From Hippasteria phrygiana (Eukaryota > Echinodermata > Asteroidea > Valvatida > Goniasteridae): a stretch of 64,000 nt of DNA. The stretch spans positions 1,798,001 to 1,862,000 of the forward strand of contig JAZGUH010000155.1 of the NCBI GenBank assembly GCA_037893225.1. Reading direction: 5' to 3'. This document shows, piece by piece, positions 3,142 to 51,371 of the stretch (the stretch's first letter is position 1; each line of letters begins with the position of its first letter). The notes beneath the pieces were generated by a model. It ran no database searches and had not been told where the DNA came from. It was given only the letters and a program-made list of their open reading frames with translations. A program made the translations under genes and the position numbers.

Positions 3142-3261
3142 GATTCTAATTCTTGATGAGATATCAATGGTAGATGAAACAAAATCTTGTTTTACATTCA
3201 AGCAATTACGTATCCTTAATCATGATTGTTTTGGAAATGTGAGCATACTTGCAGTTTGTGA
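3142..3261 (+). pseudogene. Fossil Helitron helicase fragment in satellite, copy 1
   Basis: This segment matches the helicase part of the big Helitron gene (40166-40297) at DNA level. Shared blocks include TTGATGAG, ATATCAATGGT/GTATCAATGGT, TTGTTTTACATTCA and GGAAATGTGAGCATACTTGC. Translated, it keeps LDEISMVD (Walker B) and FGNVSILAV (motif III) of a PIF1-type helicase. About 20 bp are deleted in the middle and the flanks turn into satellite, so it cannot encode a helicase. Confidence 0.85.
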
Positions 3262-4843
3262 CCATGATGATGTCATTGTGATGTCACACATTTTGCACAT
3301 TCATATGTAAGTACCTATCACCTAACAAATGTATTACAAATTGTTTTTTGAAATTAGCATGTAGGTTTGATGAGATATGGCTTTGGGGTTTAAAAACTTA
3401 AAAATTACTAGAAAATCGTATAATGATGTCATCATGACATCATGTAATTTTTGTCAATAACGCCTGCTAGCATACCTACATATCACGTTTCAATTTCATT
3501 GGACTTGTAATTCTGTAGATATATGGCTTCGAAGAATCCACCTTTAAGATGACGTCACGTGACATGTGATGACATCATCATAATGTCATGTCAATTTTCA
3601 TCTATAAACTTGCAGACGTACCTAGATATTACATTTCAACTTAATCGAACTTGTACTTTTGTAGATATGGCTTCAAAAACTGCCCCTTTAAGATGACGTC
3701 ACGTGACATGTGATGACATCATGATAATGTCATGTCAATTTTCAGCTATAAACCTACTGGGCTACCTAGATATTACTTTTCAACTTAATCGAACTTGTAA
3801 TTTTGTTTATATATGGCTTCAAAAACTGCCCCTTTAAGATGACGTCACGTGACATGTGATGACGTCATCATAACGTCAATTCAATTTTGATCTAAAAACC
3901 TACTGGGCTACCTAGATATTACTTTTGAACTTAATCGGACTTGTGCTTTTGTAGACATATGGCTTCAAAAACTGCCCCTTTAAGATGACGTCACGTGACA
4001 TGTGATGACATCAATTATGATAATGTCATGTCAATTTTCAGCTATAAACCTACTGGGCTACCTAGATATTACTTTCAACTTAATCGAATTTGTACTTTTG
4101 TAGATATATGGCTTCAAAAACTGCCCCTTTAAGATGACGTCACGTGGCATGTCATGACGTCATCAAGAGGTAAAAGTTCGGCACACATTGTGAGCAGTTA
4201 GTCTAAGTGTCTGCCAAGTTTAAAAGTACCCAAAGTGCCGGTAAGAAAGAAAACGTGTACAAATGCTATAGGCAATAATCTAGCGAGTGCCCCTTTAAGA
4301 TGACACCACGTGACATGTTATGACTTGATCATAACGTCATGTCAATTTTCATCTATAACACCAGGTGGCATACCTTACGTTCCAACTGAATCGGACTTGT
4401 ACTTTTGTAGATATATGGCTTCGAAAAATGCCCCTTTAAGATGACGTCACGTGACATGTGATGACGTCATCAGGACGTAAAAGTTCGGCACACATTGTGA
4501 GCAGTTGGGGTAAGTGTCTGCCAAGTTTAAAAGTAGCCAATGTGGCCGGTAAGAAAGTAAACGTTTACAAATGCTATGGGCAATATTCTATCGACTTGAA
4601 AAAAGAATTTTGTTATGACGTCATCAGACGTCACACAATTTTCGCTTTTTAGGGCATATCTTTGAGACATACCAAAGCTATAACAAAAAGAATTTTGAAA
4701 ATATCTTGTTTTGTTCGCTAGATATAGTGAAAAGAATGTTACGATTTTAGAACTTCAAAAATTCAGCGACTTGAAAAAAGACAAGAAATCAACCCCTTTT
4801 ATAAACAGCATGCACATTTAAGCCATGGTTATCAGTCCTTCCC

Positions 4844-4855
4844 AGAATTCCTTTG
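4844..4855. repeat. Left target site duplication of the PLE
   Basis: AGAATTCCTTTG here is repeated at 7718-7729. Removing one copy plus the intervening DNA restores a continuous module A sequence identical to its neighbours. Confidence 0.85.
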
Positions 4856-4856
4856 G

Positions 4857-9022: not shown

Positions 9023-9062
9023 CTAGAAACTGGTGTTTGTGTACAAACACAGGGCTGTTTCG
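9023..9062 (-). other. Unit junction hairpin, copy 2
   Basis: An A-rich run precedes CTAG. The hairpin GTGTTTGT-GT-ACAAACAC and AGGGCTGTTTCG follow, as in copy 1. Confidence 0.6.
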
Positions 9063-9089: not shown

Positions 9090-9209
9090 GATTCTAATTC
9101 TTGATGAGATATCAATGGTAGATGAAACAAAATCTTGTTTTACATTCAAGCAATTACGTATCCTTAATCATAATTGTTTTGGAAATGTGAGCATACTTGC
9201 AGTTTGTGA
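9090..9209 (+). pseudogene. Fossil Helitron helicase fragment in satellite, copy 2
   Basis: Nearly identical to the 3142-3261 fossil, with the same internal deletion against the helicase gene. It was therefore copied as part of the satellite unit and not captured again. Confidence 0.85.
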
Positions 9210-10996: not shown

Positions 10997-11036
10997 CTAG
11001 AAACTGGTGTTTGTGTACAAACACAGGGCTGTTTCG
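10997..11036 (-). other. Unit junction hairpin, copy 3
   Basis: Same 40-nt arrangement as at 9023: CTAG, 6-nt spacer, 8-bp stem with GT loop, AGGGCTGTTTCG. Confidence 0.6.
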
Positions 11037-11063: not shown

Positions 11064-11183
11064 GATTCTAATTCTTGATGAGATATCAATGGTAGATGAA
11101 ACAAAATCTTGTTTTACATTCAAGCAATTACGTATCCTTAATCATAATTGTTTTGGAAATGTGAGCATACTTGCAGTTTGTGA
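11064..11183 (+). pseudogene. Fossil Helitron helicase fragment in satellite, copy 3
   Basis: Same 120-bp fragment as copies 1 and 2, keeping LDEISMVD and FGNVSILAV in translation. It is part of the amplified unit. Confidence 0.85.
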
Positions 11184-14158: not shown

Positions 14159-14198
14159 CTAGAAACTGGTGTTTGTGTACAAACACAGGGCTGTTTCG
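14159..14198 (-). other. Unit junction hairpin, copy 4
   Basis: Same arrangement as copies 1-3. Confidence 0.6.
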
Positions 14199-14227: not shown

Positions 14228-14347
14228 GATTCTAATTCTTGATGAGATATCAATGGTAGATGAAACAAAATCTTGTTTTACATTCAAGCAATTACGTATC
14301 CTTAATCATAATTGTTTTGGAAATGTGAGCATACTTGCAGTTTGTGA
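14228..14347 (+). pseudogene. Fossil Helitron helicase fragment in satellite, copy 4
   Basis: Same 120-bp fragment as the other left-array copies. Confidence 0.85.
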
Positions 14348-17322: not shown

Positions 17323-17362
17323 CTAGAAACTGGTGTTTGTGTACAAACACAGGGCTGTTTCG
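17323..17362 (-). other. Unit junction hairpin, copy 5
   Basis: Same arrangement as copies 1-4. Confidence 0.6.
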
Positions 17363-17390: not shown

Positions 17391-17510
17391 GATTCTAATT
17401 CTTGATGAGATATCAATGGTAGATGAAACAAAATCTTGTTTTACATTCAAGCAATTACGTATCCTTAATCATAATTGTTTTGGAAATGTGAGCATACTTG
17501 CAGTTTGTGA
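17391..17510 (+). pseudogene. Fossil Helitron helicase fragment in satellite, copy 5
   Basis: Same 120-bp fragment. The units further right (20883 on) have the junction but no helicase fossil. Confidence 0.85.
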
Positions 17511-20882: not shown

Positions 20883-20930
20883 CTAGACATGTTATGTGTT
20901 TGTCCCGTGGACAAACACAGGGCTGTTTCG
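20883..20930 (-). other. Unit junction hairpin, copy 6 (10-bp stem variant)
   Basis: CTAG, an 8-9 nt spacer, then GTGTTTGTCC-CGT-GGACAAACAC and AGGGCTGTTTCG. The stem is extended by CC/GG compared with the common form. Confidence 0.6.
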
Positions 20931-22812: not shown

Positions 22813-22853
22813 CTAGACGGACGGTGTTTGTGGACAAACACAGGGCTGTTTCG
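22813..22853 (-). other. Unit junction hairpin, copy 7
   Basis: CTAG, spacer ACGGACG, then GTGTTTGT-GG-ACAAACAC and AGGGCTGTTTCG. Confidence 0.6.
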
Positions 22854-25010: not shown

Positions 25011-25050
25011 CTAGAGGCAAGTGTTTGTGGACAAACACAGGGCTGTTTCG
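25011..25050 (-). other. Unit junction hairpin, copy 8
   Basis: CTAG, spacer AGGCAA, then GTGTTTGT-GG-ACAAACAC and AGGGCTGTTTCG. Confidence 0.6.
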
Positions 25051-29408: not shown

Positions 29409-29414
29409 GTTTAG

Positions 29415-31077: not shown

Positions 31078-31179
31078 ATAATGAGCAATCATGTACATTG
31101 CCTTTCAATGGGAAGTTGTTCTCAGTCCTAGATTTGTATATTATTAAATATTTGTTGGTATGACTTTGTTTATTTAGGA

Positions 31180-31202
31180 TTTGTTTTTGTCTTTATCAAC
31201 AG
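31180..31202 (+). promoter_or_regulatory. Candidate 3' splice site before the Helitron ORF
   Basis: A T-rich tract ending TCTTTATCAACAG precedes the ATG at 31206 by three bases. It fits a splice acceptor, so the start codon may lie just inside a second exon. No donor is certain. Confidence 0.4.
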
Positions 31203-31205
31203 AAA

Positions 31206-37200: not shown

Positions 37201-40200
37201 TAAAGCTGAAGAGGAAACTAATTTATAAAGGATATTATCAGTATCAGTTTGTGAATAAAGAATACGTTGAGAGAGCCTTATCTTACCTTAAACATAACAA
37301 TAAGTGGTACCATGATATCGAAATAAACAATGATTGGGAGAATCCAGTGTGTGATGAAGATAATGATGAAATAGATCAACATGAAAGTGATGTTAAAGAA
37401 AAAGTGGAAACAAATGATGACATGGATAACAGTGATGAGGAAACAGAGGATGATCGTTTACGTGGCATAGCATTAGACAGTTGTCTTCAGCCAATTAATT
37501 TAGGACAGGAAATTCTTGATCAGTATTTTGATGATGTGCTTTGTGTTGCACCTTGTGAAGGCAATAGTCCAATCAGAATATTAATGGAAAAAGGCAATGA
37601 GGCAAAATGCTTTCCAGCATTATTTCCAACAGGTCAACCTACATTTGATGATGATCGTGATGTGAATTTAACTCTGTGTAGATACATGCATAACCGATTA
37701 ATGAATGTTGATAATAGATTTGCCAAAAATACTCAATACATTTTTTATGCTCAGTACTTGTCAGAGATTCAGAAAGTCATGTCTAGTGTTTCTATCGCAT
37801 TACGTAAAGGTTCTGATAAAATGCGTAGTGGAGAAAATGTAAATGCTTCAATCATCAATGACAGAGACCAGTTGAATGATATCTTGAAGTCAGACAGTGG
37901 ATATAAATTCTTGAAACCAATTCGTGGTACACCCCCATATTGGCAAGCAACACAGAAAGATGTTTTGGCAATGATCAGACAGCTAGGAATACCTACATGG
38001 TTTTGTTCATTTTCTGCAGCAGACATGAGATGGCCTGAAGTAATCAATACAATTTTAAGACAGCAAGGAGATTCTAGAGATGTGAAAGATTTGGACTGGA
38101 ATGAGAAATGTACAATATTGAGAAGTAATCCTGTAACTGCTGCAAGAATGTTTGATCAACGATTTCACACATTTCTGAAAGATATAATTTTGTCAAAAGC
38201 TGAACCAATTGGAAAAGTCAAAGACTATTTCTACAGAGTGGAATTTCAGCAAAGAGGATCTCCTCATACACATTGTCTCTTCTGGATAGAAAATGCACCA
38301 AAATTGGAAAGTGACAGTAACAAAGATGTTATTAAGTTTATTGACAAATACATCAGTTGCAAATTACCATCAAAAGAAGAAGATGAAGAATTAAATGAAA
38401 TCATCAGTCATGTGCAATTACATAGCAGAAGACATTCTAAGTCATGTAAAAAGAAACGTACTGAATGCAGATTTAATTTCCCGAGACCTCCATCTGAACG
38501 AACATTTATTACAGAGCCTGATATGCCAACAGATGATAAGAAAAAGGTGGATGAAAAGGACACACAGGAAAGGAATGATGCCAAGGAGTTACTTCAGTCA
38601 ATATGGACTGCAATACAGAAAAGTGAGAATGAACATATGACAACCAGTGAATTGTTTGCAAGTATAAATGTAACACAAGCTGACTTTGAGAAAGCTAATG
38701 ATGTCTTAAGCAGCAAGGCCAGTATCATACATAAGAGAAAGCCACAAGATGCTTGGGTTAATTTGTACAACCCTGCTCTAATGAGATGTTGGAATGCAAA
38801 CATGGATATTCAGTACATTTGTGATGCTTATGCTTGTGTTGCTTATGTAGTATCCTACATGTCTAAAGCTGAACGTGAAATGGGCGTATTGTTATCACAG
38901 GCTCAAGCTGAAGCAGAGAAAGGAAACTTGGATGCCAGACAGAGTATGAAGGAAATTGGCTGTGTGTATTTGCATAATCGTGAAGTATCGGCACAAGAAG
39001 CAGTTTATCGTGTCTGTAATTTGAGATTGAAAGAAGGATCAAGGAAAGTGGAATTTATACCGGTTGGTGAAAATCCAATTAAAATGAGCTTGCCACTTAG
39101 TGTTATTCAAAATAGATGCAATGATGACTGTGATGATGATAGTATTTGGATGACCAGTAGAGTTGATAGGTACTTGGCAAGACCAAATATTGATGAATTT
39201 GAAACAATGTGCTTAGCCACATTTTGTTCTGATTATAGAGTAATATACAACAACATGGCTAAGACAAGTCGTTCACGGGTGTATGATTTGAAGAATGGTT
39301 TAGGCCACATACAGAAACGTAGTCGAACTGATCCTGCAGTTATACGATTTCCAAGATTTTCAGTTGCAAAATATCCTGAGAAGTACTATCAGAGTATATT
39401 GCAGTTATACCTTCCTTATCGTATTGATGCTCAGTTGAAACCAGAGCAGTTTGAAACTTATGAGCAATTTTATCAAAATGGTGTTGTTCGAATTAGAGGT
39501 TCCCTGCAATCTGTGATGAATATTGTTGAAAGTAATCGGGCATTGTATGAAGCTAATGCTGAATCAGTGGATGAAGCTGAGGAATTATTAAATAAATTTG
39601 GTCCACAAGAAGATGCTTGGGCATTGATATCTCCAGAAACTGAAAAGGACAGACTTGAATGTAAAAGGCAGCACCAACCAGAAATTGAAGATAGTGACAA
39701 TGAGTTTGAGATTCCTGATTTGAAATCAAAGAAAGACAATGATGTGAAATGTAGCATTGAACCACATGCACTAAATGTATCCAAACAAGAAGCAATGAAT
39801 TTGTTGAGGTGCTTAAATGCAAAACAAAAGAAAGTTTTCTACAAAGTCCGACAGTGGTGTTTGGAGAAAGTGAATGGAAAAAATCCAGAACCATTTCATG
39901 TATTTGTGACAGGCGGAGCTGGTACTGGAAAAAGCCATTTGATCAAATGTATTTACTATGAAGCAACAAGGCTTTTTGCTACAATGATGGAGAATCCTGA
40001 TGATGTATCGGTACTACTCACAGCTCCTACAGGCGTTGCAGCATATAATATCCATGGTGCCACAATTCACAGTGCTTTGTCAATAGGAATAAATGTCAGA
40101 TTGCCATATCAACCACTTGGTGAAGAGAAGATCAATACATTAAGAAATAAATTAAGACAACTACAGATTCTGATTGTTGATGAGGTATCAATGGTGGATC

Positions 40201-41906
40201 AAAAAATGTTGTTTTACATTCATGGTCGTCTACGACAGGTCAAGCAATCACGTAATCATAATCCTTTTGGAAATGTGAGCATACTTGCAGTTGGTGATTT
40301 TTATCAGTTGCCCCCAGTGAAAGGAAAATCTTTGTACCAGACTGCTGTTACAGGTGATCTGTGGAATGATATTTTTGTGAAAGTGGAACTGACTGAAATT
40401 ATGAGGCAAAAGGAAGATGCACAGTTTGCTGAAGTCTTAAATAGGTTACGAATAAGAAGGAAAAGGGAACATTTGCAAGATAATGATATCAGATTGTTAA
40501 AATCACGTGAAACTGGAGAAGATTGGACTGATGCTGTGCATATTTACCCTTGCAACAAACAGGTGGATCAGTATAATACACAAACTCTCTATGCAAAGTG
40601 TTCTGAATGTGTATGTGTTTTTGCTAAAGATTTCCAGAAAGATCCAAAAAGTGGAAAAATGAAACCGGCAGGGAAATCAGTTAAGAAATCTTCCTATACT
40701 AATTTACCTGAGTTACTATGGCTTGGAGTTGGTGCTAGAGTAATGCTTACAAGGAATCTTGATGTATCTGATGGACTTGTTAATGGAGTGTTTGGAACTG
40801 TCTGTGACATAGTGACATTACCTAATCAACAATCTCCAAAGTGTGTGAAAGTTAAATTTGATGATGAGCATGTTGGGTTAAAGTTGAAAAAACAGTCATC
40901 TGTTGATCGTACCGATGCAGTTTGTATTGAAATGGTAGAAGAAAATGTGACTAACCAGTGTGTACGACATCAGTTTCCTCTCAAGTTAGCTTGGGCATGT
41001 ACAGTTCACAAGGTGCAAGGAATGACTACAAAAAAGGCAGTTGTATGTTTGGAGCGTACATTTTCAGCAGGACAAGCTTATGTTAGTTTGAGCAGAGTGG
41101 TATCACTGAATGGCCTTGTGATAGAAGGGTTCAATGAAAAATATATTTATTGTAATGAAGGTGTGGCTAAGGCAATGAATGAAATGTTACCATTTATTAA
41201 CGAGAATGATAACGGTTGTGATAAAAATAAAATAAAGTCTCACATAAGTTATAGCACATGTATTGCCATGCATAATATTCAAGGCTTATGTGCACATTTC
41301 ATGGATTTGACAAATAATAACGAAATGATGTCATGTGATTTCATGTGCTTTACAGAAACATGGACCGATAGAGACTTTAGTTGTGATATGGATATGAATG
41401 ATTGTAAATGGTATCATCAGCCAAGATGTGTGTCATATGATAACACTAGCCGTCTTACATGCATGTTGAAAGATCAGTGCCATGGAGGTGTAGCTGTGTG
41501 TGGCAAAAAGGAGAAAGTATTCAGCAGGCTAAATTTACCAATCCATAATCTTGAGTATATTGCATTTCAGATAATTTCAAATGTGTCATTAGCTGTTGTT
41601 ATAATTTATCGACCTGCATCATACACACTGCATGAATTTCTTGAGATTCTCCAAATGTTGCTAAATGAGCTACATAAGATTTCAAATAAGTGCATTGTAA
41701 TGGGTGATTTCAATGAAGATATTATGTACAAGGAATCTTCTGTTAGTAAACTGATGTCTAGTCATGGATATAAGCAATGTGTAGGTGATGCCACAACTGA
41801 AAGAGGTACTTTGCTTGACCATGTTTATGTTAGGAATATAGATATTAACATTGAAATTTGTCCAACGTATTATAGCTACCACGAAGCAGTCATTGTTCAG
41901 TTTTGA
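31206..41906 (+). CDS. Helitron/Helentron Rep-helicase polyprotein with PHD, two protease-like and EEP domains
   Basis: Predicted to nick, unwind and rejoin element DNA in rolling-circle-type transposition (family knowledge). Domains by residue: octapeptide repeats 167-310; PHD finger 619-669 (CWLC, CDGC, WYHVNC, WLCLRC); C76/tegument-protease-like domain about 900-1060 (GKQCVANGL, FDSH); OTU protease about 1225-1355 (GDGNCFFRA, final HYNVV); Lys/Tyr-rich 18-residue repeats 1583-1726; DUF6570-like Cys-rich region about 1850-1990 (CASC, CYTC, LPKGGQ); Helitron-like N domain about 2130-2380 with the HUH motif SPHTHCLFW near 2352; Tyr motif YVVSYMSK near 2547; PIF1-type helicase about 2860-3330 (GGAGTGKS, VDEVSMVD, GDFYQLPP, VHKVQGMT); EEP nuclease about 3350-3566 (HNIQG, FTETW, MGDFNED, LLDHVYV). 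The last EEP motif reads SYH instead of SDH. 3566 codons with no break suggest a recently active copy. The N-terminal 160 residues are low-confidence coding and may include intron. Confidence 0.93.
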   Translation: MKYYQVNDNERRAAMCRMVMERSSRRCMFPLSVIVMLSDSSSISSPCSQFSIYTHPMRCSSAISFLLGALSGEPSPPGENSNALRFASPQGSLSTRSEGISPKSDPPTCGCTLPCEADVPWLQQRLCDLAGQTQTGEPVDITVSRTVVEQTACLTTGKSDVATKDVMLPEPYETMLSEPCETMLPKPCETMLPKPYETMLPKPYETMLSEPYETVLPEPYETMLSEPCETMLSEPYETMLSEPYETMLPKPYETMLSEPYETVLPEPYETMLSEPCETMLPKSCETMLPKPCYTMLAKPCGTILTKPCERVMTRNKRRRRFTKQKKTCNVHVQFHKSLLYNVDISTGIQTCFDNDGILNKGYVETQKMGKWLEKVGHMQRKRLEKLTPKRLCRYKRMMICFNEKKYCAGGKILEYVVEEFQWKRNRRTGKVSRKAQRRRNCKESYNRRRGGKRVQQRMSKDERCVHEYAQKIIFSHTWSTLKTVLHKKQYWNCSKRGQKNESEECDNRKRSGKRMELRMTKDEQGFLEKSTKMYSHSQIGAVDEIVDNLNEVHKSDKRQMKNAGHVTCIKKHVEDGHALVRNSGKVNNRQTVKSRCDHTNSNDTCKIRPSNVGDISEKQCWLCDLSIKASESNVQCDGCDIWYHVNCTNLKKKEHILANKSFTWLCLRCGKTTYCKFLLNDLGIPTDKNVYEMTIQERCTDSKCVAMKTYTDRPCREDTGQGYEKHSVSEPRNNESCFTCRSRIEERTRNNWASTKGPTVLLREQSGGYSLRSRKVKSTEESNTDKKEPDRIREIEGTYDVEMQKVYRQSSRKRSSRKRKALESFEMELKVNEKRMTHEIEEMDDNVPLTTKVNFPYSCASLRSKQEEFPVDVVLQTEQDKQRDVSCVTLPEKILQGSFHQGHHKFGCHSGKQCVANGLSCMLMSRLKKLRDWTCFDMDSALNTGNELYGFLSRSCTINHDYLLVTELPNELDLLNHHFSIKFNDSVCGAFGKDLNLAEFDMIPINCALEQTLQQYYACFITFHGNTFVVIAQDGMYYIFDSHSRNQQGCQVSEGRSLLKCVTAWQDVYRYCIDLARSMNLSNSEQFEITGASVWLDDEVRQDADGTTQEKGHVLLGSSEHSKEIDGDCTDSRVLRGSCSGLSSTRSDIPNNMKEDNNGSLYGMSCNNKSDGGSDVEIESVTQTQGFKFVPLTYGSRNALCRFHRMGHVSLDRNEISDKCEEMGRPNSVKKIKGDGNCFFRAISFAVSGTENNHMQLRMATVNHLLKNGDKFNGFLRQGFVNVEEYVMRQRLFDCGTWATEVEIMAMAHMLRADIYTYEDGNNWYVFSASTFEREAVKLDEAIYLYHMQRIHYNVVLSVHELARESAKEQGKAQEEEALEMDSCLKTASSDKNVELKYEKEVSFETMKPKNQDLKRKKRKRTNITLQQKRKREKAKERYDKQINEVVMDSKGIQQSKSNCKNQKKCRSRNSNIVDKKLKDEKSCNDKDKASKKIYNQKNYQTNADSKKKSLHIKYHSDINFQTKRLEAQRRSYGLYPNSEGKKNSVKRRYHQNVKYRESKINHGKAKYLNNAEYRKKLINSAKTKYSDNAKYREKLISSGKTKYSDNAEYREKLISSGKTKYSDNAEYREKLITSGKTKYSDNAEYREKLISSGKTKYSDNAEYREKLISSGKTKYSDNAEYREKLISSGKTKYSDNAEYREKLISSGKTKYSDNAEYRERLIKQQSIKYKTKYHEDVDYRKKEIYRVQCKYHDNVSYRNKLIANIKKKYGCIVSYRMKLLNFEKCKYRSDTNYRRNLIKHGKEKYKRDDGYREKMAVMNRTRTVNKKEKRRSICFVTNKFKADISKGPEYVCASCHKLLFKKQVLKCHKLKYKNQKCITEKYLHTCSKKCESKCLIRESSRSCLWICYTCHRKLLANRVPGEANVNNLTLIHIPEELACLNTLEEHLIARNVSFMKMIALPKGGQHGVRGPVVCVPSNITDTVKVLPRAENENQMIRVKLKRKLIYKGYYQYQFVNKEYVERALSYLKHNNKWYHDIEINNDWENPVCDEDNDEIDQHESDVKEKVETNDDMDNSDEETEDDRLRGIALDSCLQPINLGQEILDQYFDDVLCVAPCEGNSPIRILMEKGNEAKCFPALFPTGQPTFDDDRDVNLTLCRYMHNRLMNVDNRFAKNTQYIFYAQYLSEIQKVMSSVSIALRKGSDKMRSGENVNASIINDRDQLNDILKSDSGYKFLKPIRGTPPYWQATQKDVLAMIRQLGIPTWFCSFSAADMRWPEVINTILRQQGDSRDVKDLDWNEKCTILRSNPVTAARMFDQRFHTFLKDIILSKAEPIGKVKDYFYRVEFQQRGSPHTHCLFWIENAPKLESDSNKDVIKFIDKYISCKLPSKEEDEELNEIISHVQLHSRRHSKSCKKKRTECRFNFPRPPSERTFITEPDMPTDDKKKVDEKDTQERNDAKELLQSIWTAIQKSENEHMTTSELFASINVTQADFEKANDVLSSKASIIHKRKPQDAWVNLYNPALMRCWNANMDIQYICDAYACVAYVVSYMSKAEREMGVLLSQAQAEAEKGNLDARQSMKEIGCVYLHNREVSAQEAVYRVCNLRLKEGSRKVEFIPVGENPIKMSLPLSVIQNRCNDDCDDDSIWMTSRVDRYLARPNIDEFETMCLATFCSDYRVIYNNMAKTSRSRVYDLKNGLGHIQKRSRTDPAVIRFPRFSVAKYPEKYYQSILQLYLPYRIDAQLKPEQFETYEQFYQNGVVRIRGSLQSVMNIVESNRALYEANAESVDEAEELLNKFGPQEDAWALISPETEKDRLECKRQHQPEIEDSDNEFEIPDLKSKKDNDVKCSIEPHALNVSKQEAMNLLRCLNAKQKKVFYKVRQWCLEKVNGKNPEPFHVFVTGGAGTGKSHLIKCIYYEATRLFATMMENPDDVSVLLTAPTGVAAYNIHGATIHSALSIGINVRLPYQPLGEEKINTLRNKLRQLQILIVDEVSMVDQKMLFYIHGRLRQVKQSRNHNPFGNVSILAVGDFYQLPPVKGKSLYQTAVTGDLWNDIFVKVELTEIMRQKEDAQFAEVLNRLRIRRKREHLQDNDIRLLKSRETGEDWTDAVHIYPCNKQVDQYNTQTLYAKCSECVCVFAKDFQKDPKSGKMKPAGKSVKKSSYTNLPELLWLGVGARVMLTRNLDVSDGLVNGVFGTVCDIVTLPNQQSPKCVKVKFDDEHVGLKLKKQSSVDRTDAVCIEMVEENVTNQCVRHQFPLKLAWACTVHKVQGMTTKKAVVCLERTFSAGQAYVSLSRVVSLNGLVIEGFNEKYIYCNEGVAKAMNEMLPFINENDNGCDKNKIKSHISYSTCIAMHNIQGLCAHFMDLTNNNEMMSCDFMCFTETWTDRDFSCDMDMNDCKWYHQPRCVSYDNTSRLTCMLKDQCHGGVAVCGKKEKVFSRLNLPIHNLEYIAFQIISNVSLAVVIIYRPASYTLHEFLEILQMLLNELHKISNKCIVMGDFNEDIMYKESSVSKLMSSHGYKQCVGDATTERGTLLDHVYVRNIDINIEICPTYYSYHEAVIVQF
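31704..32135 (+). repeat. 18 tandem copies of a 24-bp in-frame repeat
   Basis: Each unit encodes ML(P/S)(K/E)P(Y/C)ET. The copies differ mainly at P/S, K/E and Y/C, and the last four decay. Because the length is a multiple of three, copy-number change keeps the reading frame. The same periodicity opens long antisense and shifted ORFs, which are not genes. Confidence 0.95.
35952..36383 (+). repeat. Eight tandem copies of a 54-bp in-frame repeat
   Basis: Each unit encodes KTKYSDNAEYREKLISSG with few changes (Lys for Glu in unit 1, Thr for Ser in unit 3, divergent last unit). More diverged relatives lie on both sides (KYLNNAEYRKKLI, KYHDNVSYRNKLI). The segment is basic and probably helical. Lys/Tyr-rich repeats of this style occur in other Helitron-like proteins, but their role is unknown. 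Confidence 0.93.
40166..40297 (+). other. Helicase segment homologous to the satellite fossils
   Basis: This part of the polyprotein gene encodes ILIVDEVSMVD through FGNVSILAVGD, spanning Walker B and motif III. It is the segment found in degenerate form at 3142, 9090, 11064, 14228, 17391 and 51236 within the satellite arrays. Confidence 0.88.
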
Positions 41907-42013
41907 TTTTGCTTTGATCAATCAAATTATTTTTCAATTATGTACTGCTTAATGTTGTAGGCCTTCAAAAAAGAAAATGGTACACAATATGAATGAATAT
42001 TGTAAACAAGTCA

Positions 42014-42019
42014 AATAAA
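42014..42019 (+). terminator. Candidate poly(A) signal of the Helitron gene
   Basis: AATAAA lies about 108 bp after the stop codon and before the repeat-rich 3' region, a normal position for a polyadenylation signal. Confidence 0.55.
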
Positions 42020-42036
42020 ATAGTGTGGTTAAGAAA

Positions 42037-42600
42037 AAGGACAAAATACAATGTAACATGGTAAACAAGAAGGATGAAATAGCATGATAAACAAAGATGA
42101 AATAGCATAGCTGTCAAACAAGGATAATGAAATAGCAGGTAAACAAAGATGAAATAGCATAGCTGTCAAACAAGGATAATGAAATAGCAGGTAAGCAAGG
42201 ATTAATTACATGTAGCATGATTAACAAGCATGAAATACAAGTATGGTAAACAAGAAAGATGAAATAGCATATCAAAAGAGGATAAAATAACATAGCAAAC
42301 AAGAAAGAAGAAATAGGATGGTAAATAAGGATGAAAAGCATGATAAACAGTAAGGATGGAAAACAAGGATAAAATAATGTCAAATAAGGATGAAATAGCA
42401 TTGTAAACAAAAAGGATGAAATAGGATGGTAAATAAGGATGAAAAGCATGATAAACAGTAGGATGAAAAATAAGAAGGATGAAATAGCATGTAAAACAAA
42501 AAGGGTAAAATAGCATTGTAAACAAGAACAAAATGGCACGTTAAACCAGGATGAAATACCGTAGTAAATAAGGATGAAACAAAAGATTTTCAACAAAACA
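42037..42600. repeat. Irregular short tandem repeats, GATGAAATAGCATG type
   Basis: Variants of AAACAAGGATGAAATAGCAT recur at uneven 20-45 bp intervals, with one larger duplication containing AGCTGTCAAACAAGGATAAT twice. The resulting antisense ORFs are artefacts of the repetition. Confidence 0.8.
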
Positions 42601-42624
42601 GCACATCTGTTATTACTATTCTTC

Positions 42625-44330
42625 TGTTCAACAAGGGATGGCGACCATCACTGACTATATCTGTGGAACACTGCTGCCACACTCACAACTCATCAGTGTT
42701 GCACATCACAGGTTCTTCTGTTCAGCAAGGGATGGCGACCATCACTCACTATATCTGTGGAACACCGCTGCCACACTCACAACTCAGTGTGGCACATCAC
42801 AAGTTCTTCTGTTCAGCAAGGGATGGCGACCATCACTCACTGTAACTGTGGAACACCACTACCACACTCACAGCTCAGTGTGGCACGTCATAAGTTCTTG
42901 TGTTCAGCAAGGGATGCTGACTATTACTCACTGTAACTGTGGAACACTGCTGCCACACTCACAGCTTAGTGTGGCACGTCATAAGTTCTTGTGTTCAGCA
43001 AGGGATGCCGACTATTACTCACTGTAACTGTGGAACACTGCTGCTACACTCACAGCTCAGTGTGGCACGTCATAAGTTCTTGTGTTCAGCAAGGGATGCT
43101 GACTATTACTCACTGTAACTGTGGAACACTGCTGCCACACTCACAGCTCAGTGTGGCACGTCACAGGTTCTTCTGTTCAGCAAGGGATGGCGACCATCAC
43201 TCACTGTAACTGTGGAACACCACTGCCACACTCACAGCTCAGTGTGGCACATCACAGGTTCTTCTGTTCAGCAAGGGATGGCGACCATCACTCACTATCT
43301 GTGGAACACCACTACCACACTCACAGCTCAGTGTGGCACATCACAGGTTCTTCTGTTTAGCAAGGGATGGCGACCATCACTCACTGTAACTGTGGAACAC
43401 CGCTGCCACACTCACAACTCAGTGTGGCACATCACAAGTTCTTCTGTTCAGCAAGGGATGGCGACTATTACTCACTGTAACTGTGGAACACTGCTGCCAC
43501 ACTCACAGCTCAGTGTGGCACGTCATAAGTTCTTGTGTTCAGCAAGGGATGCTGACTATTACTCACTGTAACTGTGGAACACCGCTGCCACACTCACAGC
43601 TCAGTGTGGCACATCACAGGTTCTTCTGTTTAGCAAGGGATGGCGACCATCACTCACTGTAACTGTGGAACACCGCTGCCACACTCACAGCTCAGTGTGG
43701 CACATCACAGGTTCTTCTGTTCAGCAAGGGATGGCAACCATCACTCACTATCTGTGGAACACCACTACCACACTCACAGCTCAGTGTGGCACATCACAGG
43801 TTCTTCTGTTTAGCAAGGGATGGCGACCATCACTCACTGTAACTGTGGAACACCGCTGCCACACTCACAACTCAGTGTGGCACATCACAAGTTCTTCTGT
43901 TCAGCAAGGGATGGCGACTATTACTCACTGTAACTGTGGAACACTGCTGCCACACTCACAGCTCAGTGTGGCACGTCATAAGTTCTTGTGTTCAGCAAGG
44001 GATGCTGACTATTACTCACTGTAACTGTGGAACACCGCTGCCACACTCACAGCTCAGTGTGGCACATCACAGGTTCTTGTCTTCAACAAGGGATGGCGAC
44101 CATCATTCACAGTAAATGTGGAACACCGCTGCCACACTCATAGCAGTGTGCCATATCACCAGTCCTTCTGTATAATAACTTGATTATGACCATCACTCAC
44201 TATAACTGCACAACACTGGTGCCACACTCACAGCTCAGTGTGGTACATCCCAAGTTCTTATGTTCAACAAAGGATGACTATTACTAATTATAATTGCAAC
44301 ACTGTAGCTACATGTACACTCACAGGTAAG
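42625..44330. repeat. 91-bp minisatellite
   Basis: TTCAGCAAGGGATGGCGACC recurs every 91 bp (42721, 42812, 42903, 42994 and on), followed by ACTGTGGAACACCGCTGCCA and CAGCTCAGTGTGGCAC. About 18 copies are present and the last two or three are diverged. Inside, a block of about 453 bp (roughly five copies) is duplicated, seen at 43212 and again at 43665. It lies 3' of the Helitron gene and is probably part of that element. Confidence 0.93.
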
Positions 44331-44734
44331 TGTCATATCGCATGCATTTTTCAATATGGAACAGTGACTGACTATGGAGTAACGTTGCTACAGTCACATC
44401 TTTGATGTCCATCATTGGTCTTTAATACAAAAGACATATAATGTCCATTACTGAGCACTATTTGTTCATTGCCAATAACAGGTCTACATCTGTAGGTATA
44501 GTCTGCCGAAAAGGTTTTCTACGTGTCTTAGGTCTACAAAATTTCAGATCATTTCAAATTATGTATGGGAAATGAGTACATGTTTTGATTCTTAATAACA
44601 ATGAGTTTCTTGGCAGAAGAATGAATTTTCAACCAAAAAATAGGTGAATATTTTTTTGCATGGAAGTTGGGTCAGCATATTTATGTTCAATCACTTTAAT
44701 CATTTTTTTTATAGAGAGATCATTTGTTTTGTGT
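44331..44734. other. Noncoding interval
   Basis: No gene, RNA or repeat is recognised between the minisatellite and the piggyBac-like MITE. Confidence 0.5.
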
Positions 44735-44942
44735 TTAACCCCTTGCCACCAGTTGACACAAATACGTGCAGATTGAAATTGCTACTGCCGGTTGAGACAA
44801 ATACAAGCCAATGTTTGCATTTTCAATCTATTATTGGGGTATTGTGTACGTTATGCTTGGCTGTACAAGCCTCTTATTTCTGTTTCGCTTGGCTGCATAA
44901 CCCGGCCTGGTGCCCTGGCGCCACCCGGTGGCAAGGGGTTAA
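44735..44942. mobile_element. piggyBac-like MITE with TTAA target duplication
   Basis: TTAA + CCCCTTGCCACC at 44735-44750 is mirrored exactly by GGTGGCAAGGGG + TTAA at 44927-44942. TTAA duplication plus C-rich ends beginning CCC is the hallmark of piggyBac elements. The roughly 200-bp interior encodes no transposase, so it is non-autonomous. Confidence 0.88.
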
Positions 44943-45649
44943 ACATAGTACTGATGTGAATGTCCAATTTTTTTATATTGTTATTTGTTTGTAGACAGTG
45001 CAGAAATATATGACTGCAAGATGTGCAAGTTGTGCAAACCAAAATATTTGTACAACTGTCTCTTTTACAACATTTCGATATTATACATATATTTTGTTAT
45101 ATTTACCTGTTGTTATTTTCAGTTTAAAATAAGTAATTCTTGACATTAGTTTCCATATATGTATGTATTTTATAACAAATCCAAAATAATAAAGAATGTT
45201 CATGTTGATGGAATCAGGGAAACATTTTAAGTCTAAAGTAATGTGGTACATGTAGCATGCTTCAACACATGTACACTATCTTTGAAACGTATGTCCATTT
45301 AGGGACGTTTTCAGTGAAAGGAGCATCTTCTATAGACTTGCAGTCTGATCCAAGGCAACGCAGTCAGTGCACCATTGATGTAGAGGTTGCAATCAAAAAT
45401 ATTAATCAAATCCAGTCTTTGTAACTTTGGCTGGAACATACATGTACTTTGTGCTAATGACATTGGAAAGGCATGTACGTTGCCTATATGCAGTGAGTAG
45501 ACTTACTAGATTAGTATAGTATTGGAGTATAGCAAAGTTTAAGTCTCGAATCAATATCCAAAGTCTAACAATTTTTATTGTCAGCAAACAAACCAATTTA
45601 AATTTTTTGCGTATTTTATTTGTCTGATTTCTGTTTGATCACTTCCTTT
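44943..45649. other. Noncoding interval
   Basis: AT-rich sequence with no recognised gene or repeat. Confidence 0.5.
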
Positions 45650-46020
45650 TGCAGTCATCCAAGCCTCAGTTCTGTGAGCTACCACTTGCATCACAATGTC
45701 AAAGTCTACTCATCATCGGTCACCCAAGCCTGAGTTCTGTCAGCTACCACTTGCATCACTGTGACGTCAAAGACTACTCATCGAAGCCTGAGTTGTGTGA
45801 GTCACACTCATCACCTGTCAATCAAGCCGGAGTTTTGTCGGCTACTACTTATACATCATTATGACGTCAAAGACCACTCATCTAAGCCTGAGTTTCGTGA
45901 GACACAGTTTGCATTACTGTGATGTCAAAGATTGTAAATCACCTGTCATCGAAGCCTGAATTCTGTGCACTAAATGTACATATACCACTTGCACTGTGAG
46001 GTCAGAAGCTGCAAGGTGCC
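45650..46020. repeat. Degenerate 57-66 bp tandem repeat with CRE-like sites
   Basis: AAGCCTGAGTTCTGTGAGCT, TACCACTTGCATCACTGTGA and GTCAAAGACTACTCATC recur about six times with drift. Two copies contain TGACGTCA (near 45761 and 45862), the same octamer that dominates the satellite arrays. Confidence 0.75.
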
Positions 46021-46668
46021 TGTCAATGACTCGTTACCCTTGAAGAAAGATTTTAACCTGTTGAGTTGTATGCTATGTATGAAGTTCATAAATAGAGTTC
46101 TCATTTTCTAATTCAAACACAAAGTTGGCACAATCGACTGTCTATTCAACTGATATTGCCATTTCTTTTAAAATATCAATCATTATTGGCAAGGTGGTAA
46201 ATGTGAGTTACATAAGTTGATTTGTTATTGTTCATGAGAGGGACAATAGGTTAAGTATGAAGATTATTACATTTGCGGGTTTATAACTCGGGAGTGAGAT
46301 TTGTCAGGATTTCTCCGGATTTCAGGACTTTTTGTCAGGATTCTTGCACTTGTGAAATCTGGAAATGTGAAGTATTACCCTAGAGGTGGCTTTACCTGCA
46401 AAAAGGGATATAAACCCATAAACACAGGTATTTTAAGGGGTGCCTTTACCCAAATAGAAACCACAAACCCTACCATGCTGTGATGTTGTCGGTGATCGAC
46501 AACCAGTGCAAATTGTGTTGATTTTTTATTTTAGGCCAATCTTACCCCTAACAAATAACTTGTTTAATGTATTTCAAAGGATTTATAGTTGAGCATTATT
46601 TCCTATAGAAGCAATTGCTGTTTTTCATGACAGATCAAGGAATAAATTTATAACACCCATGTGATGGG
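46021..46668. other. Noncoding interval
   Basis: No gene or repeat is recognised. A 60-codon open frame at 46301-46483 has no recognisable domain. Confidence 0.45.
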
Positions 46669-46676
46669 CTTTTGAC

Positions 46677-46834
46677 CAACGGCAGTGGAACGGGGGGGGG
46701 GGGGGGGGGGAGAGGAGAGGGAGAGGAGGAGGAGGAGGAGGACCGAGGGGGAATTTCCGCAGTTCCACATAAAGAAAAACAAAAATTGGCAGAATTCCCC
46801 CTCCCCCCCTTTCAAAACTGTTCCGGCGCCGTTT
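46677..46834. mobile_element. hAT-like MITE with 8-bp target duplication
   Basis: The direct repeat CTTTTGAC flanks the element (46669-46676 and 46835-46842). The ends CAACGGCAGTGGAAC and, inverted, AAACGGCGCCGGAAC are imperfect terminal inverted repeats. The interior is a long purine tract (about 20 G followed by GA-rich sequence), with a matching C-rich stretch on the right. An 8-bp duplication with short inverted ends is typical of hAT elements. Confidence 0.75.
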
Positions 46835-46842
46835 CTTTTGAC

Positions 46843-47257
46843 TAATAGGAAGAGGTAGACTGTCTTAAGTATTTATAAATGGATTCTATAACACTTAATT
46901 GTTTAACCTGAACTTTATTTTCTAGTGCTGTTTTACTAAAGAACAGTGATATTAGTCATCCTACATTCCTGTAATAAACTACAAGACAACAGTCTAATTC
47001 TAAAACAATACCTAAAAAGTAATTTTGCTTGAAGTTCATATTTAATTAAACAATTAAACATTTGTACATAATTAATAAATTAAAGTTTAATTTACATGCT
47101 TTTTTTAATGAAAAAGTAACAACCTGATATGTATAGATATCTACTTCAACAAGATGTACATCTTGAGTATAGTTTGAAAGGAGATAAGTATCCTAGAACA
47201 CAAATATAGTTTGGCCTGACTCTGTATGTCTGTAATTCAAAAATAATGTCATAATAC
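46843..47257. other. Noncoding interval before the ~960-bp repeats
   Basis: AT-rich, no gene recognised. The last 25 bases begin to resemble the ~960-bp repeat. Confidence 0.45.
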
Positions 47258-49210
47258 GCCTGATTGTCTGTGTGCTTTTCACTGAATGCACTTGTTAAAT
47301 ACACAACTTTTTCTCTTCAACATTTTGTTTTCAGGCTTGTATTGGACTAACTTGCCTCTCAAATTTGAATCATTATTAATATTATGTGATATGTTCTTGA
47401 TAAAAATGCATGTTGACATTGTGGCTCGTAGGAAGCAATAAAAATAATTCTTTGAAAACAAGATCTTTGAATGAAAAGAATTATTTAATGAAGTCTTACT
47501 GGTATATTTTTATTACAGTATATAATTGAAAGAAAATACGGTTTTATTAACCCTAACAGTTCTGAATTCTCCAATTCTATTATGATTTTCCACACACCCT
47601 AGGGAGGTACAGTTAAATGCAAGGAAAGTCCGACATAATCTTGCTGGTCAAAAGTTTCTCTGCCACAATCGACAAACCTGTCAACTTTTTAGCGCAAGAG
47701 GGCGGTAGTACTTTAAAAAAATACTCCTCTGGTTGGTTTTAGTGAATTGTAGAGGGCAGCATACGAGTTTACTGGTAAAAATTCATTCACGGATTTTGTC
47801 CGGTGGCGCCTAGCACTGTATACCAAACTTAACTAACAATTTAAGGCAAACACACACATAGAGCGGTGGGTGAGAGCGAAGCATATCCCCTGTAGTGTTT
47901 GAAGACGGAAAACCAGTAATTAACGCAACACACCTTGAAGAATGGACGGCTGAAACAAACTTTATTTGAGCAGTAGAAAATCACAGAACGCATTTCTAAA
48001 AATACATTCGGAATTATAAACTGGAAATTAAATGTAAGGCAATCCAAATGACGATTGAGACACAATTTACTTGAGTAGAACAAAATACAACAATTATTTT
48101 TGAAAATTATGTTAAATCCTCTTAAATCACAGAACGTAAAACTTGTTTACCTATGACCTAAAAAACATATTTCAAAAAGAATTACAATAAGAATTTGGAA
48201 AGAATGTTATAAGGCGCCTGATTGTTTGTGCTTTTCACTGAATGCACTTGTTAAATACACAACTTTTTCTCTTCAACATTTTGTTTTCAGCCTTGTATTG
48301 GAGTAACTTGCCTCTCAAATTTGAATCTTTATTATTATTATGTGATATGTTCTTGATAAAAATGCATGTTGACATTGTGGCACGTAGGAAGCAATAAAAA
48401 TAATTCTTTGAAAACAAGACCTTTGAATGAAGAGAGTTATTTAATGAAGTCTTACTGGTATATTTTTATTACAGTATATAATTGAAAGAAAATACGGTCC
48501 TATTAACCCGAATAGTCCTGAATTCTCCAATTTTATTATGATTTTCCACACACCCTAAGGAGGTACAGTTAAATGCAAGGAAAGTTCGACATAATCTTGC
48601 TGGTCAAAAGTTTCTCTGCCACAATTGACAAACCTTTCAACTTTTTAGCGCAAGAGGGCGGTAGTACTTTAAAAAATACTCCTCTGGTTGTGTTCAGTGA
48701 ATTGTAGATTAGTAGTAGTGAGAGATGGCGCATATGACACACACAAAAGTGTCCTTTGCGCCAGAATTGTAGAGGGCAGCATACGAGTTTACTGGTAAAA
48801 ATTCATTCACGGATTTTGTCCGGTGGCGCCTAGCACTGTATACCAAACTTAACTAACAATTTAAGGCAAACACACACATAGAGCGGTGGGTGAGAGCGAA
48901 GCATACCCCATGTAGTGTTTGAAAACGGAAAACCAGTAATTAACGCAACACACCTTAAAGAATGGACGGCTGAAACTAACTTTATTTGAGCAGTAGAAAA
49001 TCACAGAACGCATTTTGTTTAATACATTGGGAATTATAAACTGGAAATTAAAGTAAGGTAATCCAAAATACGATTGAGACAACATTTACTTGAGTGGAAC
49101 AAAATACAACAACTATTTTTGAAAATTATGTTAAATCCTCCCAAATCACAGAACGTAAAACTTGTTTACCTATGACCTAAAAAACCTATTTCAAAAAGAA
49201 TTACAATAAG
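47258..49210. repeat. ~960-bp tandem repeat, about two copies right of the Helitron
   Basis: CGCCTGATTGT recurs at 47258 and about 48215, and AAAGTTTCTCTGCCACAAT at about 47650 and 48608, giving a period near 958-964 bp. The array starts mid-unit and ends mid-unit at about 49210, where AAATTAGCATGTTCAG satellite sequence resumes. The left copy at 25905-26677 belongs to the same family in the same orientation. Confidence 0.88.
48699..48773. mobile_element. Small insertion with 10-bp direct repeats and hairpin core
   Basis: GAATTGTAGA occurs at 48699-48708 and 48764-48773. The other two copies of the ~960-bp repeat have it only once, so about 65 bp were added. The insert contains TGGCGCA...GACAC and GTGTC...TGCGCCA, an imperfect hairpin. 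It could be a tiny MITE with a 10-bp duplication or a local duplication with later changes. Confidence 0.55.
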
Positions 49211-51077
49211 AATTTCGAAATTAGCATGTTCAGTTGATGAGATAGGCCTTATAGCTTAAAGATTCAAAAGTAAAAAAATTACTATAAAATCATATGATGA
49301 CGTCACCATAACGTCGCATCAATTTTCATATATAACACATGCCGGCCTACAAGCATTCCAGACACAAAATTGTTTAAGATAATCTACTGGGCTACCTAGA
49401 TATTACTTTTCAACTTAATCTGACTTCTACTTCGGTAAAAATATGCTTCGAAAAATGCCCCTTTCAGATGACGTCACGTGACATGTGATGACGTCATCAT
49501 GACGTAAAAGTTCGGCACACATTGTGAGCAGTTGGGGTAAGTGTCTGCCAAGTTTAAAAGTAGCCAAACTGGCCGGTAAGAAAGAAAACGTTTACAAATG
49601 CTATGGGCAATAATCTAGCGAGTGCCCCTTTAAGATGACACCACGTGACATGTTATGACTTGATCATAACGTCATGTCAATGTTCATCTATAACACCCGG
49701 TGGCATACCTAGATATTACGTTCCAACTTAATCGGACTTGTACTTTTGTAAATATATGGCTTCGAAAAATGCCCCTTTAAGATGACGTCACGTGACATGT
49801 GATGACGTCATCATGACGTAAAGGTTCGGCACACATTGTGAGCAGTTGGGGTAAGTGTCTGCCAAGTTTAAAAGTAGCCAAAGTGGCCGGTAATAAAGAA
49901 AAAGTTTACAAATGCTATGGGCAATATTCTAGCGACTTGAAAAAAGATTTTTGTTATGACGTCATCATGACGTCACACAATTTTCGCTTTTTAGGGCATA
50001 TCTTTGAGACATACCAAAGCTATAACAAAAAGAATTTTGAAAATATCTTGTTTTGTTCGCTAGATATATTGAAAAGAATGTTACGATTCCAAAAATTTAA
50101 CAATTCAGCGACTTGAAAAAAGACTACAAATCAACCCTTTTTATAAACAGCATGCTCATTTAAGCCATGGTTATCTGCCCTTCCCAGAATTCCTTTGTGT
50201 TATATTGAATTTGGTCTAAATTTTGAAATGGCTCCTATTTCTTACTTGAGTGAGCCACGATCATGAAATTTTGGAATTAGGTACAGAAAAATTCAATGTA
50301 TACATTTTTGTAATCGGATTGACCCTTACATGCGTAAAAAAAAACAAATATTGTTGATGACGTCATCATGACGTCACACAATTTTCGCCTTTTAGGGCAT
50401 ATCTTTGAGACATACCAAAGCTATAACAAAAATAATTTTGAAAATATCTTGTTTTGTTCGCTAGATATATTGAAAAGAATGTTACGATTTTAATACTTCA
50501 AAAATTCAGCGACTTGAAAAAAGACTAGAAATCAACCCCTTTTATAAACAGCAAGCACATAATAGCCATGGTTATCTGCCCGTCCCAGAATTCCTTTGTG
50601 TTATATTGAATTTGGTCTAAATTTTGAAATGGCTGTCATTTCTTACTTGAGTGAGCCACGATCATGAAATTTTGGAATTGGGTACAGGAAAATTCAATGT
50701 ATACATTTTTGTAATCGAATTGACCATTACATGCGTTTACAAAAAAACATATTTTAGATGACGTCATCATGACGTCAAACAATTTTCGCTTTTTAGGGCA
50801 TATCTTTGAGACATACCAAAGCTATAACAAAAAGAATTTTGAAAATATCTTGTTTTGTTCGCTAGATATATTAAAAAGAATGTTACGATTTTCAAATTTC
50901 AAAAATTCATAAAAAATCACGTGATGACGTCATCATGACGTAAAAGTTCGGCATGCATTATGAGCAGTTGGTCTAAGTATCTGTTAAGTTTAAAGGCAAT
51001 CGGCTGCATCAAAGTAGCCAAAGTGCCTGGTAGAAAGAAAACGTGTACAAATGCTATGGGCAAAAGTCTGAAAAAGA

Positions 51078-51111
<34 letters not shown>

Positions 51112-51139
51112 AAAAAAAACAAATCTTAACGAAAACAAG

Positions 51140-51176
51140 GGCTGTTTCGTAAAACTACGAAACAGCCAAAAACTAG
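51140..51176 (+). other. Perfect 12-bp hairpin followed by CTAG
   Basis: GGCTGTTTCGTA (51140-51151), loop AAAC, TACGAAACAGCC (51156-51167), then AAAAA and CTAG at 51173. In plus orientation this has the layout of a Helitron 3' end (hairpin, short spacer, CTRR). Its arm is the same GGCTGTTTCG that follows the other hairpin at every unit junction. Confidence 0.6.
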
Positions 51177-51213
51177 AGCTTTGGTGTTTGTGGACAAACA
51201 CAGGGCTGTTTCG
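51173..51213 (-). other. Unit junction hairpin, copy 9
   Basis: CTAG, spacer AGCTTTG, then GTGTTTGT-GG-ACAAACAC and AGGGCTGTTTCG. Together with the plus-strand hairpin at 51140 it gives a head-to-head pair sharing one CTAG. Confidence 0.6.
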
Positions 51214-51235
51214 TTTGGGGGGTTTTTGGTAGTTT

Positions 51236-51371
51236 GATTCTTAATTTTTGAGATTTCAATGGTGGATCAAAAAATCTCGTTTTACATTCATGGTCGTCTA
51301 CGACAGGTCATGCAATCACGTAGGCTTATTCATAATCGTTTTGGAAATGTGAGCATACAAGGAGTTGATGA
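51236..51371 (+). pseudogene. Better preserved Helitron helicase fragment in right array
   Basis: Matches 40166-40297 with runs such as TTTCAATGGTGGATCAAAAA, TTTTACATTCATGGTCGTCT and ACGACAGGTCATGCAATCAC. It retains the roughly 20 bp missing from the five left-array fossils, so it is closer to the ancestral fragment. It passes into TGACGTCA satellite at both ends and has lost the reading frame. Confidence 0.9.

Follow-up and report, generated by a model that had tools for sequence, protein, structure and literature searches.

The window analyzed here, a stretch of 64,000 nucleotides from the asteroid Hippasteria phrygiana (assembly GCA_037893225.1, contig JAZGUH010000155.1, positions 1,798,001 to 1,862,000 of the forward strand), carries an array of head-to-tail copies of a Helentron (Helitron2-type) element. 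Each array unit starts with a 3′ terminus that reads, on the plus strand, as CTAG, a hairpin, and then AGGGCTGTTTC(G). On the minus strand this corresponds to CGAAACAGCC-CT-hairpin-n-CTAG, wherein the element ends before a T. A pattern search located 15 such termini, one for each of 15 units and all in the same direction. The 5′ terminus, wherein T-GGCTGTTTCG is accompanied by its own hairpin, is present as a single instance, and no second example was found in the window by pattern search even with three mismatches allowed. The hairpins fold better than shuffled sequences, with z values of −1.8 to −2.7 for three of the 3′ ends, −6.3 for a fourth, and −8.1 for the 5′ end. The termini are located as follows.

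3073..3112, minus strand, 3′ terminus of the leftmost unit, bordered by unrelated DNA (pattern)
9023..9062, minus strand, 3′ terminus of unit (pattern)
10997..11036, minus strand, 3′ terminus of unit (pattern)
14159..14198, minus strand, 3′ terminus of unit (pattern)
17323..17362, minus strand, 3′ terminus of unit (pattern)
20883..20930, minus strand, 3′ terminus of unit (pattern)
22813..22853, minus strand, 3′ terminus of unit (pattern)
25011..25050, minus strand, 3′ terminus of the gene-bearing unit (pattern, fold)
51139..51172, minus strand, 5′ terminus: T tract, GGCTGTTTCG, and its own hairpin (pattern with at most three mismatches, fold)
51173..51213, minus strand, 3′ terminus of the unit with the right-type helicase scrap (pattern, fold)
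54879..54920, minus strand, 3′ terminus of unit (pattern)
56084..56125, minus strand, 3′ terminus of unit (pattern)
57281..57327, minus strand, 3′ terminus of unit (pattern)
59481..59530, minus strand, 3′ terminus of unit (pattern, fold)
61028..61066, minus strand, 3′ terminus of unit (pattern)
63016..63056, minus strand, 3′ terminus of unit (pattern)

On the left, the array ends at the 3′ terminus at 3073, where none of the 3072 bases beyond it match the array. On the right it continues for at least 10 kb past the window, through three more 3′ termini and no 5′ terminus. A Penelope-like retroelement (4856-7717; reverse transcriptase and GIY-YIG, ORF 5079-7352) lies within a 400-bp repeat of the first unit, and a 12-bp duplication, AGAATTCCTTTG, stands on either side of it (4844-4855 and 7718-7729).

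One unit of the array is far longer and carries a gene. It extends over 25011-51172, with its 3′ terminus on the left and its 5′ terminus on the right, and has the same termini and 146-bp and 400-bp repeats as the rest of the array; 146-bp, 400-bp, and B repeats flank the gene on both sides.

25011..51172, minus strand (that of the termini), gene-bearing Helentron unit of 26,162 bp (termini by pattern, repeats on both gene sides)
25148..25908, plus strand, 146-bp and 400-bp repeats left of the gene (repeat comparison)
25905..26679, plus strand, B repeat left of the gene (repeat comparison)
31206..41906, plus strand, ORF of 3566 amino acids: OTU, DUF6570, Helitron_like_N (Rep), PIF1 helicase, endonuclease
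42619..44276, plus strand, 91-bp minisatellite, also present in other gene copies
47241..49220, plus strand, B repeats right of the gene (repeat comparison)
49381..50909, plus strand, 146-bp and 400-bp repeats right of the gene (repeat comparison)

The matches of the ORF to Helitron_like_N, PIF1, and Exo_endo_phos exceed the Pfam cut-offs. It also matches Herpes_teg_N, which we take to be a family of cysteine-protease-like N-termini, and a PHD finger falls just under its cut-off. Coding tandem repeats of 24 bp and 54 bp lie within the ORF at 31703-32093 and 35902-36375. The combination of a Rep (HUH) domain, a PIF1 helicase, and a C-terminal endonuclease in one ORF is that of Helentron/Helitron2 elements. 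Likewise, the translation contains RGSPHTH, wherein S stands between G and P of the motif RG(S/L)PHxH, as the published rule for Helentrons has it (PMC4067079). Relatives among the matches listed are proteins of crinoid, sea urchin, mollusc, hagfish, acorn worm, and fish.

The element with the gene is one of the array's own units. An earlier note on this DNA had described the Helitron as a neighbor of a complex satellite; the gene lies inside one array unit rather than merely beside it. The remaining units have the same 3′ terminus and no match to the gene except for the helicase scrap described below, and most are without a 5′ terminus. As gene-less units that share termini with a gene-bearing partner and lack its ORF, they correspond to non-autonomous Helentrons (HINEs), but both termini intact on one gene-less unit were not observed in the window. 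The units are not canonical Helitrons (Helitron1), which start with 5′-TC, end with CTRR-3′, and have a hairpin at the 3′ end only; they resemble these in their CTAG end but not in their 5′ end, formed by T-GGCTGTTTCG with its own hairpin. Nor are they classical satellite DNA, that is, tandem repeats without transposon ends, since they start with a Helentron-type terminus. The termini of the window agree with the published definition of Helitron2 ends (PMC3627910) and with end features published for HINEs (PMC7492417, PMC4067079).

The direction of the ORF is opposite to that of the termini of its unit, as a nested insertion would allow, and this orientation is what favors an independent host satellite into which a Helentron was inserted, with the helicase scrap being incidental. 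No convincing pair of inner termini for a separately nested gene element was found when inverted repeats were searched in 41900-47300 and 25850-31300 was read through; a palindrome at 47150-47165 stands out in the former search. Reversed ORFs have been reported for Helitron2 elements (PMC3627910, PMC5148889). Moreover, when we compared the 944-Mb genome, several gene copies on different contigs proved to share the same flanking repeats. On the right side of seven other gene copies, B is present in all seven and is followed by the 146-bp and 400-bp repeats in five; at C88, another unit's 3′ terminus cuts into B, and the sequence read for the C185 copy ends within B. Finally, where the repeats stop, they do so at Helentron-type termini with unrelated DNA beyond. 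An origin as a host satellite is therefore improbable. The tie between a complex satellite and a rolling-circle transposon family, which the earlier note had drawn from the scrap, holds and is stronger than was proposed: the scrap does come from the helicase of the family, but the better proof lies in the shared termini and inner repeats.

The scrap is a short piece of helicase sequence that lies just inside the 3′ terminus of six units, in the same sense as the gene.

40166..40297, plus strand, gene stretch equivalent to the scrap (blastn, alignment)
3142..3261, plus strand, helicase scrap, left (L) type (blastn, alignment)
9090..9209, plus strand, helicase scrap, left (L) type (blastn, alignment)
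11064..11183, plus strand, helicase scrap, left (L) type (blastn, alignment)
14228..14347, plus strand, helicase scrap, left (L) type (blastn, alignment)
17391..17510, plus strand, helicase scrap, left (L) type (blastn; identical at distant genome places)
51236..51371, plus strand, helicase scrap, right (R) type (blastn; identical at distant genome places)

These five left sites and one right site had been proposed to be homologous to 40166-40297, and blastn within the window confirms this proposal. Against the gene stretch with 200 bases of flank, 51236-51371 is 84.1% identical (E 4e-38), the sites at 9090, 11064, 14228, and 17391 match 40166-40297 at 77.6% (E 6.5e-23), and the site at 3142 matches at 76.1% (E 8e-22). 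No further significant match to this stretch was found in the window, wherein the next-best E value is 0.34. When aligned with the whole ORF, the right piece reaches a score of 170 and a left piece one of 119, far in excess of the maxima of 34 and 40, respectively, from 300 dinucleotide shuffles of each. A chance match in the range of unrelated sequence, which the earlier note had named as grounds for giving up the idea, is thus ruled out. The gene stretch encodes ILIVDEVSMVD...GNVSILAVGD, which fits the span that we take to be Walker B to motif III, as had been suggested from the letters.

The match to the gene ends abruptly at both edges of the scrap. Within the scrap, agreement with the gene at ungapped sites is 89% (right) and 91% (left); outside, it is 10-17% in 30 bases on the left and 25-28% in 40 bases on the right. 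Twenty bases kept in the right scrap are missing from all five left scraps, just as had been noticed. Right and left scraps are 84.5% identical at ungapped sites and have in common an insertion of about six bases relative to the gene, and they are joined to their surroundings in the same way. Because they share this insertion and these joints, both can be traced to one event. Changes relative to the gene at codon positions 1, 2, and 3 number 2, 8, and 4 in the right type and 5, 2, and 3 in the left type, and thus give no sign of coding constraint.

The sequence of the scraps also argues against their derivation from a host PIF1 gene, which belongs to the same protein superfamily. Across the scraps read, agreement with the Helentron gene is 88-95% at ungapped DNA sites, and the right type keeps FYIHGRLRQV, which is absent from the two PIF1 chains that we aligned. 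A host origin was rejected on the DNA identity to the Helentron gene, in a comparison that covered that gene and the two PIF1 chains, and we give it almost no weight.

Searches for the scrap across the genome yielded 892 to 1322 first-look candidates, gene copies among them, and the best 40 were scored for each query. For the right type, all 40 best-scored places, the window's own included, are 100% identical over 278 bases including flanks and are distributed over 26 contigs. For the left type, all 40 are 100% identical over 120 bases on 25 contigs, with the window's own left copies falling outside these 40. A third type, named for C100, is represented among its best 40 places by five identical sequences and 35 at 83-88%, of which we read eight divergent variants. 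The sequence that follows the scrap resembles the tail of B at 69% in the left type and 80% in the C100 type, and the match is weak (43 bases) in the right type.

An order of decay from helicase gene to right copy to left copies had been deduced from the bases that the left copies lack. The changes relative to the gene do not bear this out: nine are unique to the right type, five to the left type, and three are common to both. Moreover, a small tree, with mostly low support at its inner nodes, does not place the left type under the right type. Because each type is identical at 40 of 40 best-scored places and the two form separate lineages, there is no decay series. By their sequences, right and left types are recently multiplied lineages, and the left copies are not decayed right ones; identity at distant places suggests recent spread and nothing beyond it.

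The 11 variants that we read (right, left, C100, and the eight divergent ones) have edges that agree to within one base. The exception is a right edge that falls at 40293, next to a small insertion. Since they share edges and none of the 11 represents a longer intermediate, the scrap probably formed once. In the least changed scrap read, at L070, 94.7% of sites agree with the window gene, and the commonest letter among scraps differs from the gene at six of 132 positions.

Loci with the right-type scrap also reveal where the array stops. The 30 such loci fetched among the 40 listed matches, again including the window's own, show a 3′ terminus beside unrelated DNA in seven cases (six distinct sites, with 0-24 of 800 bases matching the array), and at L028 the terminus adjoins DNA wherein none of 800 bases match. 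When three of the right-type loci that have unrelated DNA on the left were followed further, each reached a second 3′ terminus; these are therefore array edges and not single copies. A solitary gene-less copy with both ends was found neither in the window nor at these three edges. Unrelated DNA beside a 5′ terminus was seen a single time, at L027 (none of 583 bases match the array). We had considered the T tract as the left boundary of the element and dropped it, because CTAG is the edge beside unrelated DNA both at L028 and at 3073 in the window. Helentrons are defined in part by insertion at T-rich sites without target duplication; here, an A precedes CTAG on the plus strand in all 60 distinct CTAG ends, with a mean A fraction of 0.875 in 10 bases. 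At L045 and L061, two of the 30 right-type loci, the end is ATAG instead of CTAG and 798 of 800 flanking bases match the array; at L070 and L073, TAG follows a run of A at the end.

The scrap had been viewed as a feature of the satellite, but it is not confined to gene-less units. Twelve gene copies, including that of the window, were sampled on their left side, and the 3′ end was found in eight. Four of these eight carry the scrap (two copies on C363 and one each on C533 and C100), and it is missing from the 3′ end of the other four (the window copy, C400, the second C155 copy, and C327). The copies on C60, C185, C88, and C608 are not among the eight with a resolved 3′ end. By distance alone, with a scrap 11.9-15.0 kb upstream on the same strand, copies on C105, C2, C368, C44, C164, and C153 would also carry it. 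Among the 40 gene copies listed, at least 10 thus bear a scrap, six of them by distance only. On C363 the two gene copies lie 15.7 kb apart on the same strand (853707 and 869396), with a left-type scrap between them (L033).

Where the scrap came from is suggested by the order of parts in a scrap-bearing unit, which runs 3′ terminus, helicase piece, B tail, 146-bp repeat, 400-bp repeat. This is the order of the gene-bearing unit minus the parts on either side of the helicase piece, and because order and orientation are collinear with that unit, a deletion relic is the simplest source. In one copy, most of the gene lying between the 3′ terminal module and the B/satellite region would have been deleted; the scrap would then have spread by transposition and array growth. 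The presence of the scrap on gene-bearing copies is not predicted by a simple deletion relic, which therefore needs a later exchange of 3′ tips. The shared repeats offer the homology, and through exchange within them the scrap would have reached gene-bearing copies. The weak B-tail match of the right type and the lack of a longer intermediate among the 11 variants also count against a deletion relic.

The main rival is capture, wherein repair or template switching placed a 132-bp piece of the helicase gene of another copy as filler next to the 3′ terminal module, with no need for a gene-less deletion ancestor. It would directly explain why a scrap and a full gene are found on the same element in at least four copies read. 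By eye, each of the two joints has only three to four bases in common (GAT, TGA), as joints made by filler or template switching do. Capture does not, however, predict that order and orientation match those of the gene-bearing unit, and on balance we regard it as unlikely, if far from negligible. The earlier note had proposed that the satellite began as a non-autonomous Helitron or by a capture; capture is not demonstrated here, and a one-time deletion relic accounts for order and orientation at least as well. We judge with good but not full confidence that the array represents a single Helentron family, of which the 26-kb unit is the gene-bearing member, and that the scrap, which lies next to the 3′ terminus of many copies, derives from the gene of the family itself and is likely the remnant of one old deletion.

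How the arrays grow can be approached through the sequences into which the termini abut. Among 59 distinct 3′ termini read, 42 sit in the A tract after GTCTGAAAAAGA and six follow the 5′ hairpin. The other 11 include eight beside DNA without an array match, one (L014) inside B, and two (L053, L057) beside mostly array-like sequence. This sample is not random, as it was drawn from the window, gene flanks, and scrap loci with a pattern that requires CTAG. At L029, L034, L035, and L066, two to seven 5′ ends are stacked side by side, as would result from new copies landing in the T tract at an older copy's 5′ end. Arrays probably grow in part by insertion into the A/T tract of the element itself. 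New copies would insert into this tract at the 5′ end of older ones, aided by unequal crossing-over. The latter must also act, given that 3073-51172 holds eight 3′ termini and one 5′ terminus and that neighboring units are nearly identical (99.9% for those at 10997 and 14159, 99.7% for those at 54879 and 56084).

The same near-identity and the same excess of 3′ termini could be obtained without any self-insertion, through rolling-circle concatemers or unequal crossing-over of units, and concatemers of truncated Helitrons have been proposed for plants (cited in PMC12628747). The plant arrays, as described there, have a single 3′ end for many 5′ ends, opposite to what the window shows, and both the 42 of 59 termini in the A tract and the stacked 5′ ends at four loci speak against growth of this kind. 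We consider it possible but somewhat doubtful. A fuller statement of growth by self-insertion is itself tentative and falls a little short of an even chance: the satellite may be the living product of a self-targeting Helentron that inserts at its own 5′ T tract, with gene-bearing and gene-less units stacked and their tips shuffled by repeat exchange, the helicase scrap thereby coming to lie on both.

Several known systems resemble this one in part. The Helitron2/Helentron elements described previously (PMC3627910, PMC4067079) share with this one a hairpin at either end and asymmetric inverted repeats, with GGCTGTTTCG close to the 5′ end and CGAAACAGCC lying 30 bases from the 3′ end. Common to both are also a Rep-PIF1-endonuclease ORF, which is reversed as in Helitron-1_DR (PMC3627910), and, probably, insertion in T tracts. 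The element studied here differs in its length of 26 kb, in the satellite-like repeats on both sides of the gene, in its place inside an array of relatives, and in its 3′ end, CTAG, which is that of canonical Helitrons. The Cg_HINE elements of the Pacific oyster (PMC7492417) are likewise Helentrons of the non-autonomous kind, in which satellite-like repeats occupy the center and subterminal inverted repeats and a 3′ palindrome are present. Their authors could not relate an autonomous partner to these satellite-bearing HINEs, whereas here a gene-bearing unit shares both termini and repeats, and the portions of the oyster report available to us mention no helicase scrap.

HINEs have been described as deletion derivatives of Helentrons (PMC4067079), and in the same report the gene-less HINE-Mo copies of mite Helentrons are explained as simple deletion derivatives of those with the gene, a probable parallel to the gene-less copies here. 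Different are the long arrays and the one fixed internal gene scrap, which also occurs on gene-bearing copies. The truncated-Helitron arrays of plants (Xiong et al. as summarised in PMC12628747) are also composed of head-to-tail truncated rolling-circle elements, but have many 5′ ends and a single 3′ end, as opposed to fifteen 3′ ends and one 5′ end in the window. For the FoHeli composites of Fusarium (PMC5148889), nested self-insertion was proposed to yield several termini and a reversed ORF; those composites are short, with duplicated 5′ sequence and a single 3′ end, whereas the arrays here are long and contain many 3′ ends, with 5′ ends stacked at some loci.

Helentrons that bear satellites, Helitrons in tandem, and reversed ORFs all have precedents. 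New are the fixed scrap of helicase sequence and the presence of a gene-bearing partner within the array; no report of a helicase scrap in a satellite was found in the titles and abstract openings of the literature searched. A transposon origin of satellites has often been argued from the similarity of parts. Here, the array stands in a single window together with a gene-bearing element that shares its ends and repeats, and a unique scar serves as a lineage tag. This scar allows the exchange of units and 3′ tips between gene-less and gene-bearing copies to be traced genome-wide, and with the stacked 5′ ends, growth by self-insertion becomes open to testing.

The gene copies elsewhere in the genome vary in several further respects. 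In a 3.1-kb piece compared among eight copies, the frame is free of stops in six, including that of the window, and not in L004 and L005. At C400, C155, and C327, the helicase part is 99-100% identical to that of the window, but the start of the ORF is only about 77-79% identical and the left sides differ more. The 146-bp repeats of the C327 gene copy are interrupted near the equivalent of window position 49609 by about 1.2 kb without a match to the window (L027, 167-1343). Between the B tail and the 146-bp repeats of the gene copies on C363 and C185 (L019, L020) lies an inverted repeat around AGGAGGGCGCTATTTGATTTGGGTATG..., located by eye at 2300-2440 of L019 and absent at that place in the window, which is perhaps a small foldback element. 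In the left region of three gene-bearing copies, ARAGORN reports pairs of tRNA-Thr-like sequences (L016, 316-388 and 629-701; L018, 304-376 and 617-689; L022, 221-293 and 534-606) that probably represent a SINE, and the window units that start at 22813 and 63016 contain a short stretch that is, by eye, similar to them.
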